Source: Mesobacillus subterraneus
Lineage (GTDB): Bacteria > Bacillota > Bacilli > Bacillales > Cytobacillaceae
Reading direction: 5' to 3'
Length of the DNA stretch: 35,246 nucleotides
NCBI RefSeq assembly: GCF_000934845.1
Contig: NZ_JXIQ01000100.1
Location: 1 to 35,246 of the forward strand
Part shown: positions 12,870 through 24,975 of the stretch, in pieces
Layout: each line of letters opens with the position of its first letter
Numbering within the stretch: the first letter of the stretch is position 1
Made by a program: the position numbers and the translations under genes
The notes under the pieces: generated by a model
What the model was told of the DNA's origin: nothing
What the model saw: only the letters and a program-made list of their open reading frames with translations
The model's database searches: none

Positions 12870-13310
12870 ATGAAGAATGAAATGAATTTGTATTTTAGTG
12901 CGTTAAGTCAAAACGAATCCTTTGCCCGCGTAACCGTCGCGGCCTTCATTGCGCAGCTGGATCCGACAATGGACGAATTGACAGAAATCAAGACAGTCGT
13001 ATCTGAAGCGGTAACAAATGCGATCATCCATGGATATGAGAGTGATCCAGACGGAAAGGTATTTATTTCTGTATTACTCAAGGATAGTTCGATCGAAATG
13101 CTGATAAAAGATGAAGGAATAGGAATTACCGATATCGATGAAGCCATGCAGCCACTTTATACATCAAAGCCAGAGCTGGAACGGTCAGGTATGGGCTTTA
13201 CGATAATGGAAAATTTTATGGATGAAGTACAAGTGAGATCAGAGCCCGGCTTTGGGACAGAGATTCGTTTGAAAAAGCACCTGTCAAAGAGCAAAGCACT
13301 GTGCAATTAA
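12870..13310 (+). CDS. spoIIAB: Anti-sigma F factor / serine kinase SpoIIAB
   Basis: GHKL-type ATPase that binds SigF and phosphorylates SpoIIAA on Ser58. 146 residues: N box [12 protein letters not shown] (Glu46, Asn50), G1 box DEGIGI (81-86), G2 box SGMGFTIME (107-115). The ATG lies 3 bp after the spoIIAA stop; sigF follows 13 bp after its own stop. Complete and of normal length. Confidence 0.96.
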
Positions 13311-13323
13311 GGGAGTTTTGCCG

Positions 13324-14082
13324 ATGGATGTGGAGGTAAAAAAAGACAATAGCCAAACCTATCTTAAGGACAACGAAGTCAAGGAACTGATTTTGAGAAG
13401 CCAGCAAGGAGACCAGGCTGCAAGGGATTTGATTGTCCAGAAGAACATGCGACTCGTCTGGTCCGTCGTCCAGCGTTTTCTCAACAGAGGGTATGAGCCA
13501 GATGATCTGTTTCAAATTGGCAGTATTGGCCTCTTAAAGTCAGTTGATAAATTTGACCTGTCGTACGACGTAAAATTTTCAACCTATGCAGTTCCAATGA
13601 TCATTGGTGAAATTCAGCGTTTCATCAGAGATGACGGGTCCGTAAAGGTAAGCAGGTCGCTTAAAGAGACCGGCAATAAAATCAGGAAGGCAAAAGACGA
13701 GCTTTCCAAAACATTTGGCAGGGTTCCTACCGTTAATGAAATCGCCGATTATCTCGAATTATCACCAGAAGATGTAGTCATGGCCCAGGAGGCAAGCCGA
13801 AGTCCCGCTTCCATCCATGAAACTGTCTATGAAAATGACGGCGATCCCATTACTCTGCTCGACCAGATCGATAATGGGGAAGAAGGCCGCTGGTTCGATA
13901 AAATTGCGTTAAAAGAGGCTATAAACGAACTGGAAGAACGGGAAAAGCTAATTGTATATTTGCGGTATTATAAAGATCAAACTCAGTCAGAAGTCGCAGT
14001 CCGGCTAGGTATCTCTCAAGTCCAAGTTTCACGGCTCGAAAAAAAAATACTGCAGCAAATGAAAGGCCGTATGGATCTTTGA
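13324..14082 (+). CDS. sigF: RNA polymerase sigma-F factor
   Basis: First forespore-specific sigma factor. 252 residues with region 2 (MRLVWSVVQRFLNRGYEPDD, core binding; FSTYAVPMIIGEIQRFIRDDG, -10 recognition), region 3 (VSRSLKETGNKIRKAKDEL) and region 4 helix-turn-helix (QTQSEVAVRLGISQVQVSRL). The frame includes TTG 13318, but ATG 13324 (MDVEVKK) matches B. subtilis and has gggag 8 nt upstream. Its last codons lie inside the terminator stem. Also called spoIIAC. Confidence 0.96.
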   Translation: MDVEVKKDNSQTYLKDNEVKELILRSQQGDQAARDLIVQKNMRLVWSVVQRFLNRGYEPDDLFQIGSIGLLKSVDKFDLSYDVKFSTYAVPMIIGEIQRFIRDDGSVKVSRSLKETGNKIRKAKDELSKTFGRVPTVNEIADYLELSPEDVVMAQEASRSPASIHETVYENDGDPITLLDQIDNGEEGRWFDKIALKEAINELEEREKLIVYLRYYKDQTQSEVAVRLGISQVQVSRLEKKILQQMKGRMDL

Positions 14083-14106
14083 ATCCATATGGCTTTTTGT
14101 TTTTTC
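14066..14106 (+). terminator. Terminator of the spoIIA operon overlapping the sigF stop
   Basis: GCCGTATGGAT (14066-14076), loop CTTTGA that contains the sigF stop, and ATCCATATGGC (14083-14093) form an 11-bp stem followed by TTTTTGTTTTTT. It isolates the downstream repeat array from sigF transcription. Confidence 0.9.
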
Positions 14107-14139
14107 TGTAATCCACATTTAATTTCCTTGATTTGGACG

Positions 14140-14762
14140 GATTGGTGACCAAAAACAGAGAATCTTAGAGAAAGAGGTCACCAATGCAGCCGATTGGTGA
14201 CCTAAAACACCGTAATTTGGAAAAAGAGGTCACCAATAGAGCTGATTGGTGCCTTGAAACACCAGTAACTGGGAAAACAGTACACCAATAGAGCTGATTG
14301 AAGCACTAAAACACCAGTAACTGGTAATTCGAGTCACCAATAACCCCGATTGGAGCACTGAAACACCAGTAACTGGGAAAACAGTACACCAATAGAGCTG
14401 ATTGGAGCACTAAAACACCAGTAACTGGGAAAACAGTACACCAATAAAGGCGATTGGTGCACTAAAACACCAGTAACTGGGAAAACAGTACACCAATAAA
14501 GGCAATTGGTGCATTAAAACACCAATAACTGGTAATTCGAGTCACCAATAACCCCGATTGGAGCACTAAAACACCAGTAACTGGGAAAACAGTACACCAA
14601 TAGAGCTGATTGGATCACTAAAACACCAGTAACTGGGAAAACAGTACACCAATACCCCGATTGGAGCACCGAAACACTAGTAACTGGAAAAGTGAGTCAC
14701 CAATAACCCCAATTGGTACACCGAAAAACCATATTTCGGAAAAAGTATCACCAACAATCCAG
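14140..14762. repeat. Tandem array of twelve 52-bp units between sigF and spoVAA
   Basis: Units start at 14140, 14192, 14244, 14296, 14348, 14400, 14452, 14504, 14556, 14608, 14659 and 14711; every period is 52 bp except one of 51. Each unit begins GATTGG/AATTGG (GATTGA in unit 4) and ends with CACCAAT plus a 5-6 nt variable tail, so unit junctions form CACCAAT-N7-ATTGGTG dyads, perfect at 4 junctions. Units 3-7, 9 and 10 carry a second dyad, CCAGTAACTGG, in the middle. Tails fall into few types (agagct, aaaggc, aacccc). Edge units (1, 2, 12) are the most divergent. 52 is not a multiple of 3 and stops occur in all frames, so it is non-coding. It is not a CRISPR: there are no unique spacers. 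The rest of the 796-bp gene-free gap holds the sigF terminator, a small AGGCA-AA-TGCCT palindrome at 14761-14772 and the spoVAA promoter. Confidence 0.95.
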
Positions 14763-14830
14763 GCAAATGCCTCAACTAAAATAAAAATCCCCGATCTATC
14801 AAGCACCCCAGCTTAACCAATTATTGGACA

Positions 14831-14859
14831 TCATGAAAAGCGCCCGGCAATACATACTA
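14831..14859 (+). promoter_or_regulatory. Candidate SigG promoter of the spoVA operon
   Basis: CATACTA (14853-14859) matches the SigG -10 CATnnTA; TCATG (14831-14835), 17 bp upstream, fits the nATR core of the -35 but lacks the preferred G. spoVA is SigG-controlled in B. subtilis. TSS would fall just before the ribosome binding site. Confidence 0.45.
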
Positions 14860-14878
14860 AATATACGAGGAAATCAAT

Positions 14879-15514
14879 GTGTTGGAAGTGATTCTGATGG
14901 AAAAAACGATTTATATCCGCATGCGGAATCGTGTGCAGGTCAAGCCAGAGGAAATCCTTTTATTAAAGGATATTGCTCAGATCATAGCCAGCGAAACTAT
15001 CTATCAAGACCTTACAGTGCTTGAAGTAAAAAGGGTCTCGCCTAAGGATCATATCCATATTATTGATGTCATGAAGGTCATTCATTTCATTACAGCAATC
15101 TATCCAGATTATGAAGTTCAAGCTATTGGGCCCGCCCAAACAATTATTGAAGTGATTTACAAGAAGAAAGGGATGTCGATCCCGTTTTTCATCCTGGTTT
15201 GGATTTTGCTATTTTTCGGAGCAGCCTTAACGATCATGAATTTCCACGAAGATGTCAGCATGCAAACGGTGCATAAGAGGCTCTATTTTATCATGACGGG
15301 GAAAGAAGTCGAGAAGCCGCTATTATTCCAAATTCCTTATTCCATCGGCATTGGTGTTGGCATGATTCTGTTTTTTAACCATGTTTTTAAAAAGCGCCTC
15401 AATGAAGAGCCAAGTCCGCTCGAGGTTGAAATGTTTAATTATCAGCAATCGCTTGATCAATATGTCATTTTGTATGAAAACAAGGAAAGTGTGAAACATA
15501 TTGATGACGATTAA
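14879..15514 (+). CDS. spoVAA: Stage V sporulation protein AA
   Basis: Forespore inner-membrane protein of the SpoVA group involved in dipicolinic acid transport. 211 residues: an N-terminal soluble domain of about 95 residues, a TM segment near 101-121 (IPFFILVWILLFFGAALTIM), the family block NFHEDVSMQTVHKRLYFI, and a second TM near 142-162 followed by KKRLNEEPSPLEVEMFNYQ. GTG 14879 has gagg 8 nt upstream; ATG 14897 (MEKTIYIR) corresponds to the B. subtilis start but lacks a ribosome binding site. It overlaps the spoVAB start. Confidence 0.92.
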   Translation: MLEVILMEKTIYIRMRNRVQVKPEEILLLKDIAQIIASETIYQDLTVLEVKRVSPKDHIHIIDVMKVIHFITAIYPDYEVQAIGPAQTIIEVIYKKKGMSIPFFILVWILLFFGAALTIMNFHEDVSMQTVHKRLYFIMTGKEVEKPLLFQIPYSIGIGVGMILFFNHVFKKRLNEEPSPLEVEMFNYQQSLDQYVILYENKESVKHIDDD

Positions 15515-15926
15515 CATCTTGTTCATTATCATGATTGGTCTTGCTAGCGGGCTTGCAGTTGGCGCGGGTTTTGTTGCTTTCTTATCCGTTCTTGGAGTAA
15601 TTCCAAGGCTAACGCAGTTGACAAAGACGATGAAGCTGATCGCCTGGTATGAATGGGCCGTAGTTTTTGGTGCCTTGCTAGGAACAGCAGGTAGTTTAAG
15701 GGACCCTGAATTACACTTATCTCCTTATGTTACCATCCCGCTTGGACTTACTGGGGGCATATTTGTCGGGATGATGGCCGCTGCGTTAACAGAGGTACTG
15801 AACGTGCTGCCGATTCTCGCAAAAAGGGTTCGTGTCGATGATAAGCTCGAGACGCTGTTAATGGCTATTGTGCTCGGGAAAGTATTCGGTTCATTGTTTC
15901 ACTGGATATACTTTGTTGGACGATAA
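15504..15926 (+). CDS. spoVAB: Stage V sporulation protein AB
   Basis: 140-residue integral membrane protein, four hydrophobic segments, with the family sequence VGAGFVAFLSVLGVIPRLTQ near the N terminus and EVLNVLPILAKRV in the C-terminal half. ATG 15504 gives the B. subtilis-like N terminus; TTG 15501 is possible. The start lies inside the end of spoVAA, so it is coupled. In B. subtilis the next genes are spoVAC, spoVAD and spoVAEb; here spoVAEa follows after 30 bp. Confidence 0.92.
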   Translation: MTINILFIIMIGLASGLAVGAGFVAFLSVLGVIPRLTQLTKTMKLIAWYEWAVVFGALLGTAGSLRDPELHLSPYVTIPLGLTGGIFVGMMAAALTEVLNVLPILAKRVRVDDKLETLLMAIVLGKVFGSLFHWIYFVGR

Positions 15927-23835: not shown

Positions 23836-24975
23836 ATGAAAAGGATTTGGGTGAAACTAGTAGTGATCGTCACTTTGTTGATCTGCAGCATTCCCGGAAC
23901 AGTCCAGGCCTCTGTTTCCGTAAGTGCCCAGAGTGCTATTTTAGTGGAACAGGAATCAGGAAGAGTCTTATTCGAAAAAGATGCTCACAAGGTGAGCAGG
24001 ATTGCCAGTATTACAAAAATCATGACAGCAATTCTGGCGATCGAATCTGGGAAACTAGATGAAATGGTGAAAGTAAGTGATCAGGCAGTTCAGACGGAGG
24101 GATCGTCGATTTATTTAAAACCTGGTGAAAAAATCAGACTGGAAGACCTTGTGTATGGGCTGATGCTTAGATCAGGGAATGACGCGGCAGTCGCAATTGC
24201 GGAACATGTGGGAGGCAGCGTCGATGGGTTCGTATACATGATGAATGAGAAAGCACAGCAACTCGGGATGATTGATACTCATTTTGCCAATCCGCATGGT
24301 CTCGATGATCATGAAAACCATGTATCAACTGCTTATGATATGGCATTATTGACGCGTTATGCGATGAACAATGAAACATACAAGAAGATCACGGCAACAA
24401 AGGTTCACAGGGCTCCTAATCCAACAGAAACCTGGGATAGGGTATGGGAAAATAAGAACAGGCTCCTTACAGAAAAATACAAATATAGTACCGGAGGGAA
24501 AACTGGTTACACAAAAAGGGCGAATAGGACGCTAGTATCTACTGCAAAAAAGGGCGATTTCGCAATGATCGCCGTCACACTCAATGCCCCCGACGATTGG
24601 AACGACCATATTCAGATGTTTGAAACGACATATTCCGATTATGATATCGCAGAAATTCTTTCGAAAGGAAAAGTGGATGGAGTCAAGGACTCTGCCTTTA
24701 AAAATAAAGTTTATTTGGACCATTCCTTTGTTTATCCGTTAACTTCAGAAGAAGAAAAGCTAGTGAGGATAGAATATCAATTAAAAAAACCAGGACAGTC
24801 AAACCGCGCTTTGCCGAGTCAGCAGATTGTCGGCCGGGCTAATGTATACCTTAAAGATAAACAGATTGGCAGTTTGCCAGTGTATTACCAAAGGGCAGAA
24901 AAAGAGAACAAGTCTTTTTTTGATTTTTTTAAAGATATTTTCACCTTAATAGCCGGGGTCAAAGACCATGGTTAA
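23836..24975 (+). CDS. dacB: D-alanyl-D-alanine carboxypeptidase DacB (PBP5*)
   Basis: Sporulation carboxypeptidase controlling cross-linking of the spore cortex from the mother-cell side. 379 residues: signal peptide with cleavage probably after VQA (residue 25), active-site SITK Ser58-Lys61, SGN 113-115, KTG 222-224, then a C-terminal beta domain and a Phe-rich tail (FFDFFKDIF) that could anchor it to the membrane. Ribosome binding site aaaggaga is about 14 nt upstream, slightly far. It overlaps spmA by 8 bp; dacB-spmA-spmB is the known operon. Confidence 0.94.
   Translation: MKRIWVKLVVIVTLLICSIPGTVQASVSVSAQSAILVEQESGRVLFEKDAHKVSRIASITKIMTAILAIESGKLDEMVKVSDQAVQTEGSSIYLKPGEKIRLEDLVYGLMLRSGNDAAVAIAEHVGGSVDGFVYMMNEKAQQLGMIDTHFANPHGLDDHENHVSTAYDMALLTRYAMNNETYKKITATKVHRAPNPTETWDRVWENKNRLLTEKYKYSTGGKTGYTKRANRTLVSTAKKGDFAMIAVTLNAPDDWNDHIQMFETTYSDYDIAEILSKGKVDGVKDSAFKNKVYLDHSFVYPLTSEEEKLVRIEYQLKKPGQSNRALPSQQIVGRANVYLKDKQIGSLPVYYQRAEKENKSFFDFFKDIFTLIAGVKDHG

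Follow-up and report, generated by a model that had tools for sequence, protein, structure and literature searches.

A 52-bp tandem array in the sigF-spoVAA gap of Mesobacillus subterraneus is probably a dispersed satellite of a chromosomal NERD-nuclease element

The locus studied here raises the question of what a twelve-unit tandem array of 52-bp period is doing in the gap between sigF and spoVAA, in a stretch of 35,246 nucleotides from Mesobacillus subterraneus (contig NZ_JXIQ01000100.1; the whole stretch is called the window below). We propose, and regard as probable, that it represents one dispersed satellite belonging to a two-part, array-maintaining chromosomal element centred on a putative NERD-domain nuclease. 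Tandem Repeats Finder places the array at 14179-14721 (period 52, 10.5 copies, score 595). Unit starts running from 14179 to 14698 define 11 full units at 14179-14748 on the + strand, which by skew is the A-rich strand. With a degenerate leading unit that keeps only the right half-dyad (14127-14178, + strand) and a trailing part unit (14749-14761, + strand), both delimited by splitting the sequence by unit, the total comes to about 12, as counted in the initial annotation; its single 51-bp exception has to be corrected to two, nine spacings of 52 bp being followed by two of 51 bp. Of the dyad CACCAAT-N7-ATTGGTG, supposed to lie at every junction, a pattern search found exact copies in 4 of 11 full units (at 14179-14199, and from 14231, 14439 and 14491) and degenerate ones in the others; in the first unit it stretches to 11-bp arms, AGGTCACCAAT-N7-ATTGGTGACCT, at 14175-14203. 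A second dyad, CCAGTAACTGG, noted earlier in the central units, is exact in 7 of 11, its centre lying 26 bp, or half a period, away from that of the first. The array is non-coding as described, no open reading frame of at least 80 aa being found in 14083-14878, and Rfam gave for 13300-15600 one weak match (E 0.67, below the gathering score) that falls within spoVAA and none in the array.

By its features the array is a member of the published 52-nt satellite class of Bacillus. That class was described from 176 Bacillus genomes containing 1886 arrays of 51-53 nt, with a constant length and a variable sequence, and its authors knew in 2021 of neither a function nor a protein for it (Subirana and Messeguer, PMC8161180). 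M. subterraneus is itself named there, as a Bacillus, together with M. selenatarsenatis and M. boroniphilus, as sharing such repeats. The window array agrees with that account in its unit of 51-53 bp and at least 4 units, its non-coding nature, the presence of motifs together with their reverse complements, and a species-specific sequence of which close relatives share a family; many arrays in several sequence families per genome were found in its own genome and in one relative. Unlike in PMC8161180, the arrays are here tied to a NERD gene, and the class of 20-21 nt is in part tied to a related clade of such genes. What is new, within the open-licence literature, where we found no earlier report of a link between NERD genes and satellites, is thus the system of gene plus array, the array alone belonging to a known class.

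The linkage was first met through a gene flanking such an array, outside the window, whose product of 304 aa contains a NERD domain (PF08378, E 9.1e-16). A search of the genus with this protein gave 108 matches in 20 of 21 genomes (0-8 per genome), a few being fragments of a single split gene and many sitting near a contig end; 65 of them were examined, comprising 25 loci gathered automatically and 40 that were fetched. A tandem array follows the stop codon in 61 of the 65 Mesobacillus loci, with a period of 51 (6), 52 (43) or 53 bp (12), starting 5-354 bp past the stop (median 52) and comprising 2.3 to 24 copies, while a repeat upstream was found in a single locus, with a period of 56. The four misses are three genes whose contigs end 59, 94 and 143 bp past the stop and one truncated gene of 209 aa. 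For other genera, a profile gave 54 matches in 10 of 14 genomes, and 50 of these rows were examined (left out were G194:C178, two pieces at G194:C186, and G198:C5:4571). Within their full-length class an array is present behind 28 of 30 genes (19/20 among L243-L272, 7/8 among L290-L297 and 2/2 in a phylum sample), and both misses are contig ends, 35 and 84 bp past the stop. Rows repeating the same gene (L273, L276 and L277; L350, L389, L390 and L391; L341 against L382) were dropped. Taken together, a 51-53-bp array lies directly behind 89 of 95 NERD genes, and the six misses comprise five contig ends 35-143 bp past the stop and one truncated gene. The linkage spreads over differing repeat sequences, of which many kinds can be told apart by eye among paralogs, whereas the length hardly varies; in Cytobacillus kochii all 4 copies have 51 bp, and one of them (L297) agrees on visual comparison with family 92_54_4 published for kochii.

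The controls bear on how closely the two go together. The most telling comparison is with other NERD proteins: none of 22 generic NERD rows has a 51-53-bp array (two have a 20-21-bp repeat). None is present at 15 Y1 transposase loci either. Arbitrarily placed stretches gave 9 arrays of 51-53 bp in 400 kb from two genomes with a NERD gene and none in 306 kb from four genomes without a NERD match, one of which contributed about 6 kb. A class-wide NERD search matched 1 of 14 control genomes, that of Thermotoga maritima. No further partner gene common to the NERD loci emerged from the 14 largest families of neighbouring genes listed, each of which comes almost wholly from one ortholog group. Neither were relatives of the NERD protein found in collections of plasmids, phages and viral contigs.

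In a tree of 170 of the 182 NERD proteins (those below 200 or above 460 aa left out), built by a quick method that leaves several deep forks open, the 95 array-linked rows group together, and the array length tracks the tree, one clade having 53 bp and another 51 bp. For the 90 rows with 51, 52 or 53 bp, 11 changes of length are needed on the tree, whereas 300 shuffles of the labels needed 26.2 on average and never fewer than 22. These results bear on the idea of a neutral dispersed satellite, made by slippage alone and lying beside NERD genes by positional coincidence. Such a satellite would account for a copy number that varies down to zero and for a linker sequence that drifts, but it is at odds with a linkage of 89 in 95 over differing repeat sequences, with a length that follows the protein tree, and with the conservation of the dyad arms at a locus not selected by its repeat (see below), so that we find it barely credible.

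The lengths themselves lie near whole helical turns. Beyond the array-linked group, a second NERD clade often carries arrays of 20-21 or 40-42 bp (those of 20-21 bp at L251, L260, L262, L268, L279, L372-L375, L377, L383-L388 and L394-L397), and in a third lineage, that of genome G574, 8 of the 12 loci examined show tandem repeats, with periods of 31/62, 31/62, 62, 61, 50, 51, 41 and 41; its arrays of 41, 50-51 and 61-62 bp (L358, L360, L361, L365, L367 and L368) include several with long dyads, for example TGCTAGCGAT...ATCGCTAGCA. Among periods of at least 18 bp beside NERD genes, 130 of 143 deviate by no more than 0.15 turn from an integral number of turns of 10.4 bp each, values that are not independent of one another; a test on five lineages gives p 0.0003 and is descriptive, since the lineage values were picked after seeing the data. 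The earlier suggestion that 52 bp stands for five turns of B-DNA thereby gains independent support, because NERD-linked arrays elsewhere lie near two, three, four, five and six turns. It may be that the NERD clades act as rulers, setting the unit at whole helical turns (about 20, 31, 41, 52 and 62 bp) whatever its sequence, with the nuclease writing, homogenising and dispersing the arrays. The 20-21-nt repeats are the other unexplained class of constant length in PMC8161180, and both classes would then be outputs of one enzyme family; we consider this wider idea evenly balanced between true and false. Intrinsic curvature through A-tracts was set aside by reasoning alone, the two tracts of the unit lying about 17 and 35 bp apart, out of helical phase.

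The family to which the window array belongs, as a dispersed member, has its NERD gene elsewhere in the same genome (contig C71, 11587-12492; locus L190), between what we take by name to be a lepA-like gene before and a yqxA-like gene behind. The array of that gene extends to the end of its contig, and over 140-148 bp it shares 75-79% identity with the array of the window; by total score an array on contig C37, which has no adjacent NERD gene, is closer (73% over 531 bp), because it is longer. A close ortholog of the gene (at least 65% identity) occurs in 15 genomes, all 15 of which have the exact dyad, while of the six genomes without one, four, two of them incomplete, have no dyad. The exact dyad has 18 matches in the 3.9-Mb genome of origin against none for a backwards control pattern, which excludes chance; beyond the window it occurs on C37 within a 53-bp array, and on C52, C71, C89 and C101 within shorter arrays or singly. 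The earlier suggestion of a clade-specific intergenic repeat is supported by its presence in 17 of 21 genomes of the genus, these being included in 49 of 193 of the family; outside the genus there is mostly one match per genome, the largest exceptions being G095 (24), G126 (7) and G117 (4). In a single-contig genome, five NERD-linked families each recur at some 5-8 other places (E of 1e-3 or better). A local system of the sigF-spoVAA gap, as considered in the initial annotation, is not supported, the family being dispersed.

How the dispersed arrays evolve was assessed on 40 loci from seven further genomes and 7 from the genome of origin, the window included, in which 48 clusters with 274 units were scored. 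Unit spacing is exactly 52 in 189 of 226 cases. Mean unit identity is 0.706 within arrays and 0.646 between orthologous arrays, and for other pairs it is 0.587 in the same genome and 0.586 in different genomes. Arrays thus evolve locus by locus, since identity within and between orthologous arrays exceeds that of other pairs, for which sharing a genome makes no difference; homogenisation between the loci of one genome was looked for and not seen.

Conservation within the unit was compared in the sigF-spoVAA gap, at loci chosen without regard to the repeat, using seven arrays, the window's among them, with the phase set by whole-unit match to L026. Identity between species is 81% at the 14 arm positions, 59% in the linker, 57% at the outer arm positions and 53% in the loop (arm versus linker, Mann-Whitney p 0.0115), and 91-100% at the two A-triplets of the unit. 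The dyad arms and the two A-tracts are therefore conserved above the rest of the unit, and this pattern of substitutions looks like that of a sequence-specific binding site. Of 28 consensus units, 27 published and one from this analysis, 16 have a dyad with a p value of 0.02 or better.

A site of this kind could alternatively serve a protein whose DNA binding is mainly architectural, a coat on phased arrays at the borders of operons as part of the nucleoid or as an insulator, its nuclease fold being unused on the arrays and a benefit to the host keeping them in place. The whole-turn lengths and the conserved arms are in accord with such a role, as is the proposal of an unnamed polymerising protein for the 52-nt repeats (PMC8161180). 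So is the setting of the arrays, which lie in 24 codirectional, 15 convergent and 8 divergent gaps (n=47); convergent gaps are enriched, at 15/47 against 11/110 of the other gaps of at least 80 bp at the same loci (Fisher p 0.0017). Certain gaps are moreover reused, because the same ones hold arrays across species, also of other families. The gap before what we take by name to be a phosphoglucomutase-like gene has an array in 13 of 21 genomes of the genus, one of which (L156) is of another repeat family, and the sigF-spoVAA gap has a 51-53-bp array in 10 of 80 spoVAA loci gathered by protein rather than by repeat, four of these with apparently unrelated repeats. The window's family forms the array in this gap of six near relatives (L019, L020, L022, L023, L026 and L029), and arrays of unrelated-looking sequence (51-52 bp) lie there in L050, L063, L070 and L088; these four are the only 51-53-bp arrays in 450 kb from 69 spoVAA loci of other species. 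The position between two forespore operons, remarked upon earlier, is not private to this array, and further gaps too recur across species; the repeat is dispersed, as a neutral origin was said to require, without being free of position. An architectural role is harder to reconcile with catalytic-type residues that are invariant in the protein, with close relatives in which the gap has shrunk to roughly one unit (L021 and L024) or is wholly devoid of the family (L027), and with several paralogs per genome that have separate repeat families. We judge it unlikely, though it deserves more weight than the other alternatives. In a further relative (L025) the contig starts inside a unit. The four loci with unrelated repeats belong to Robertmurraya, Neobacillus, Bacillus sp. 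P14.5 and Bacillus sp. SG-1. The record titles of L020 and L036 (Chryseobacterium sp. ISL-80 and Pseudomonas sp. ISL-84) are unlikely, their spoVAA being close to that of Mesobacillus/Bacillus, and probably stand for mislabelled or mixed cultures.

Recognition could also take place on RNA, either through a hairpin transcript of the array that binds or inhibits the NERD protein, in the manner of a type III toxin-antitoxin system, or through a small RNA. Dyads could form hairpins, the array lies behind the gene, and 52-nt repeats of B. coagulans show up in RNA-seq according to PMC8625621. The strands speak in two directions. Behind NERD genes the sense strand has T over A in 49 of 61 arrays and pyrimidine over purine in 51 of 61, and 18 of 25 dispersed codirectional arrays (p 0.043), the window's among them, have the A-rich strand as sense, a difference in preference that speaks against RNA. 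Stem mismatches read on the A-rich strand comprise 194 A-C and 115 G-U, which does not support an RNA hairpin on that strand when it is sense; the same mismatches on the T-rich strand amount to a mild G-U excess, a point in favour of RNA, that strand being the usual sense behind NERD genes. The window array also lies behind a predicted terminator, and whole-turn lengths suit duplex DNA and not RNA. Recognition of duplex DNA thus fits better, given the helical lengths and the data on strands and mismatches, and an RNA-level function appears improbable. A role of the array as antisense terminator was considered as well, the minus strand of the region having 7 terminator-like sites because its stems are followed by T-runs; it was rejected, arrays also occupying divergent gaps (8/47), where terminators would be useless.

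PF08378 was found in the six proteins scanned (E 6.7e-10 to 9.1e-16, above the gathering score), and NCBIfam and PADLOC gave no family match in the three members scanned. In 39 aligned members E42, Q72, D74, K89 and the cysteines C217, C220 and C237 are invariant and C234 is nearly so. We read these residues, on sequence grounds, as a putative PD-(D/E)XK site and a zinc ribbon. The AlphaFold2 model has a mean pLDDT of 91.5, and the helical C-terminus of the protein is probably a DNA-binding domain. Many top fold matches are, going by their titles, presumably restriction-like nucleases (R2 endonuclease, Can2/Card1, BspD6I and McrBC). The array-linked subfamily resembles other NERD proteins in the domain and in the residues of a restriction-like nuclease, and differs from generic ones by adding the zinc-ribbon cysteines, the helical C-terminus and the array.

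The linkage and the rule on length are shown by the data; we infer from them that the protein binds, cuts and spreads the arrays in the following way, with a possible gain for the host in nucleoid structure, regulation or defence. The first part of the element would be the NERD-domain gene (restriction-like nuclease fold, zinc ribbon and helical C-terminus) with the tandem array directly behind it, and the second the many cognate arrays in intergenic gaps elsewhere. The NERD protein, probably as a dimer, would bind one site per unit on duplex DNA, and neighbouring bound proteins lying on one face of the DNA would fix the spacing. Nicks or cuts made within the arrays and then repaired by recombination could change the number of units, homogenise them and occasionally seed arrays in other gaps. 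Arrays would persist where genes are unharmed, as may be the case between the sigF terminator and the spoVAA promoter.

Several observations weigh against the proposed element. The linkage set is drawn from Bacilli, and a profile at 1e-40 matched 2 of 299 phylum genomes, one of them that of M. subterraneus, yet Paenibacillus is reported to abound in 52-nt repeats (PMC8161180). A broken copy of the full-length class in Niallia (L259, the same as L270), counted outside the 30, has no array. Two genomes that lack a close ortholog of the cognate NERD gene (G014 and G019) nevertheless contain 15 dyads each. Dyads are significant in only 51 of 97 NERD-linked units, so that one palindrome per unit is common and not universal. 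The second NERD clade has its 20-21 or 40-42-bp arrays in just 24 of 41 rows, and in none of its three rows from the genome of origin (L378-L380); in the arbitrarily placed stretches, repeats of these lengths numbered 4 and 5 and so also occur away from a NERD gene. Fold matches are weak, with a best E of 1.8e-3, none at 0.001, and a query TM-score of at most 0.31 among the 50 matches listed. Finally, the array is missing at L027 without obvious harm. Broken NERD copies without an array occur also in the genome of origin (L240/L277, contig C133) besides the Niallia copy, and would fit a loss of the array along with the gene; another short copy, of 231 aa (L192), still has its array.

The proposed element resembles several known systems in part. 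In CRISPR, regular repeats with a conserved dyad alternate with unique spacers. The window array shares the regular repeats and the dyad, and has no unique spacers of the usual size, its units being near-copies over their full length that repeat as wholes with drift; the earlier statement that it is not CRISPR agrees with this, although no search for cas genes was made. In type III toxin-antitoxin systems such as ToxIN a repeat array lies upstream of the toxin gene. A nuclease-like gene adjoins a tandem array here too, and the differences are an array behind the gene (downstream in 61/65 and upstream in 1/65), a longer unit, a different fold and many dispersed arrays in trans. REP/BIME elements are dispersed intergenic palindromes served by a RAYT transposase, and dispersed palindromes plus an enzyme are likewise present here; in contrast, NERD-linked arrays are head-to-tail, with a fixed period and another enzyme family. 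A REP/RAYT origin was rejected. Y1 genes are present in all 6 genomes searched, and none of their 15 loci has within about 1.5 kb a dyad of at most 2 mismatches; one has a dyad with 3 mismatches, and several of the 15 genes are IS200-like rather than RAYT-like. Constant-length satellites, a long-standing puzzle, gain a candidate partner in the NERD protein, and with a partner of one gene, a length nearly independent of sequence and a signature in the protein tree, the puzzle becomes directly testable; if the ruler idea is true, a new mode of genome shaping by a protein would come to light.

The array has a spore gene on either side. Upstream, sigF (13318-14082, + strand) encodes the sporulation sigma factor (NCBIfam TIGR02885, 372 bits against a cut-off of 321), and a predicted intrinsic terminator (14057-14102, + strand; 20 pairs and a T-rich tail, by consensus match only) overlaps its stop codon. 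The array begins past this terminator and stops about 130 bp short of spoVAA (14879-15514, + strand; Pfam PF12164, SporV_AA, 5.9e-20). Ahead of spoVAA and outside the array lies a conserved block, TTAACCAATTATTGGACATCATGAAAA ... CATACTA (14813-14859, + strand), which is kept also at the array-less L027 and which we take to be a sigma-G-like promoter. The block contains CCAATTATTGG, a near cousin of the array arms, just upstream of the presumed promoter, and a TTATTGGAC-like element (at most 2 substitutions) occurs in 37 of the 80 spoVAA loci, array-less ones included. Elsewhere in the window, a two-copy tandem repeat of 22 bp lies at 24597-24639.
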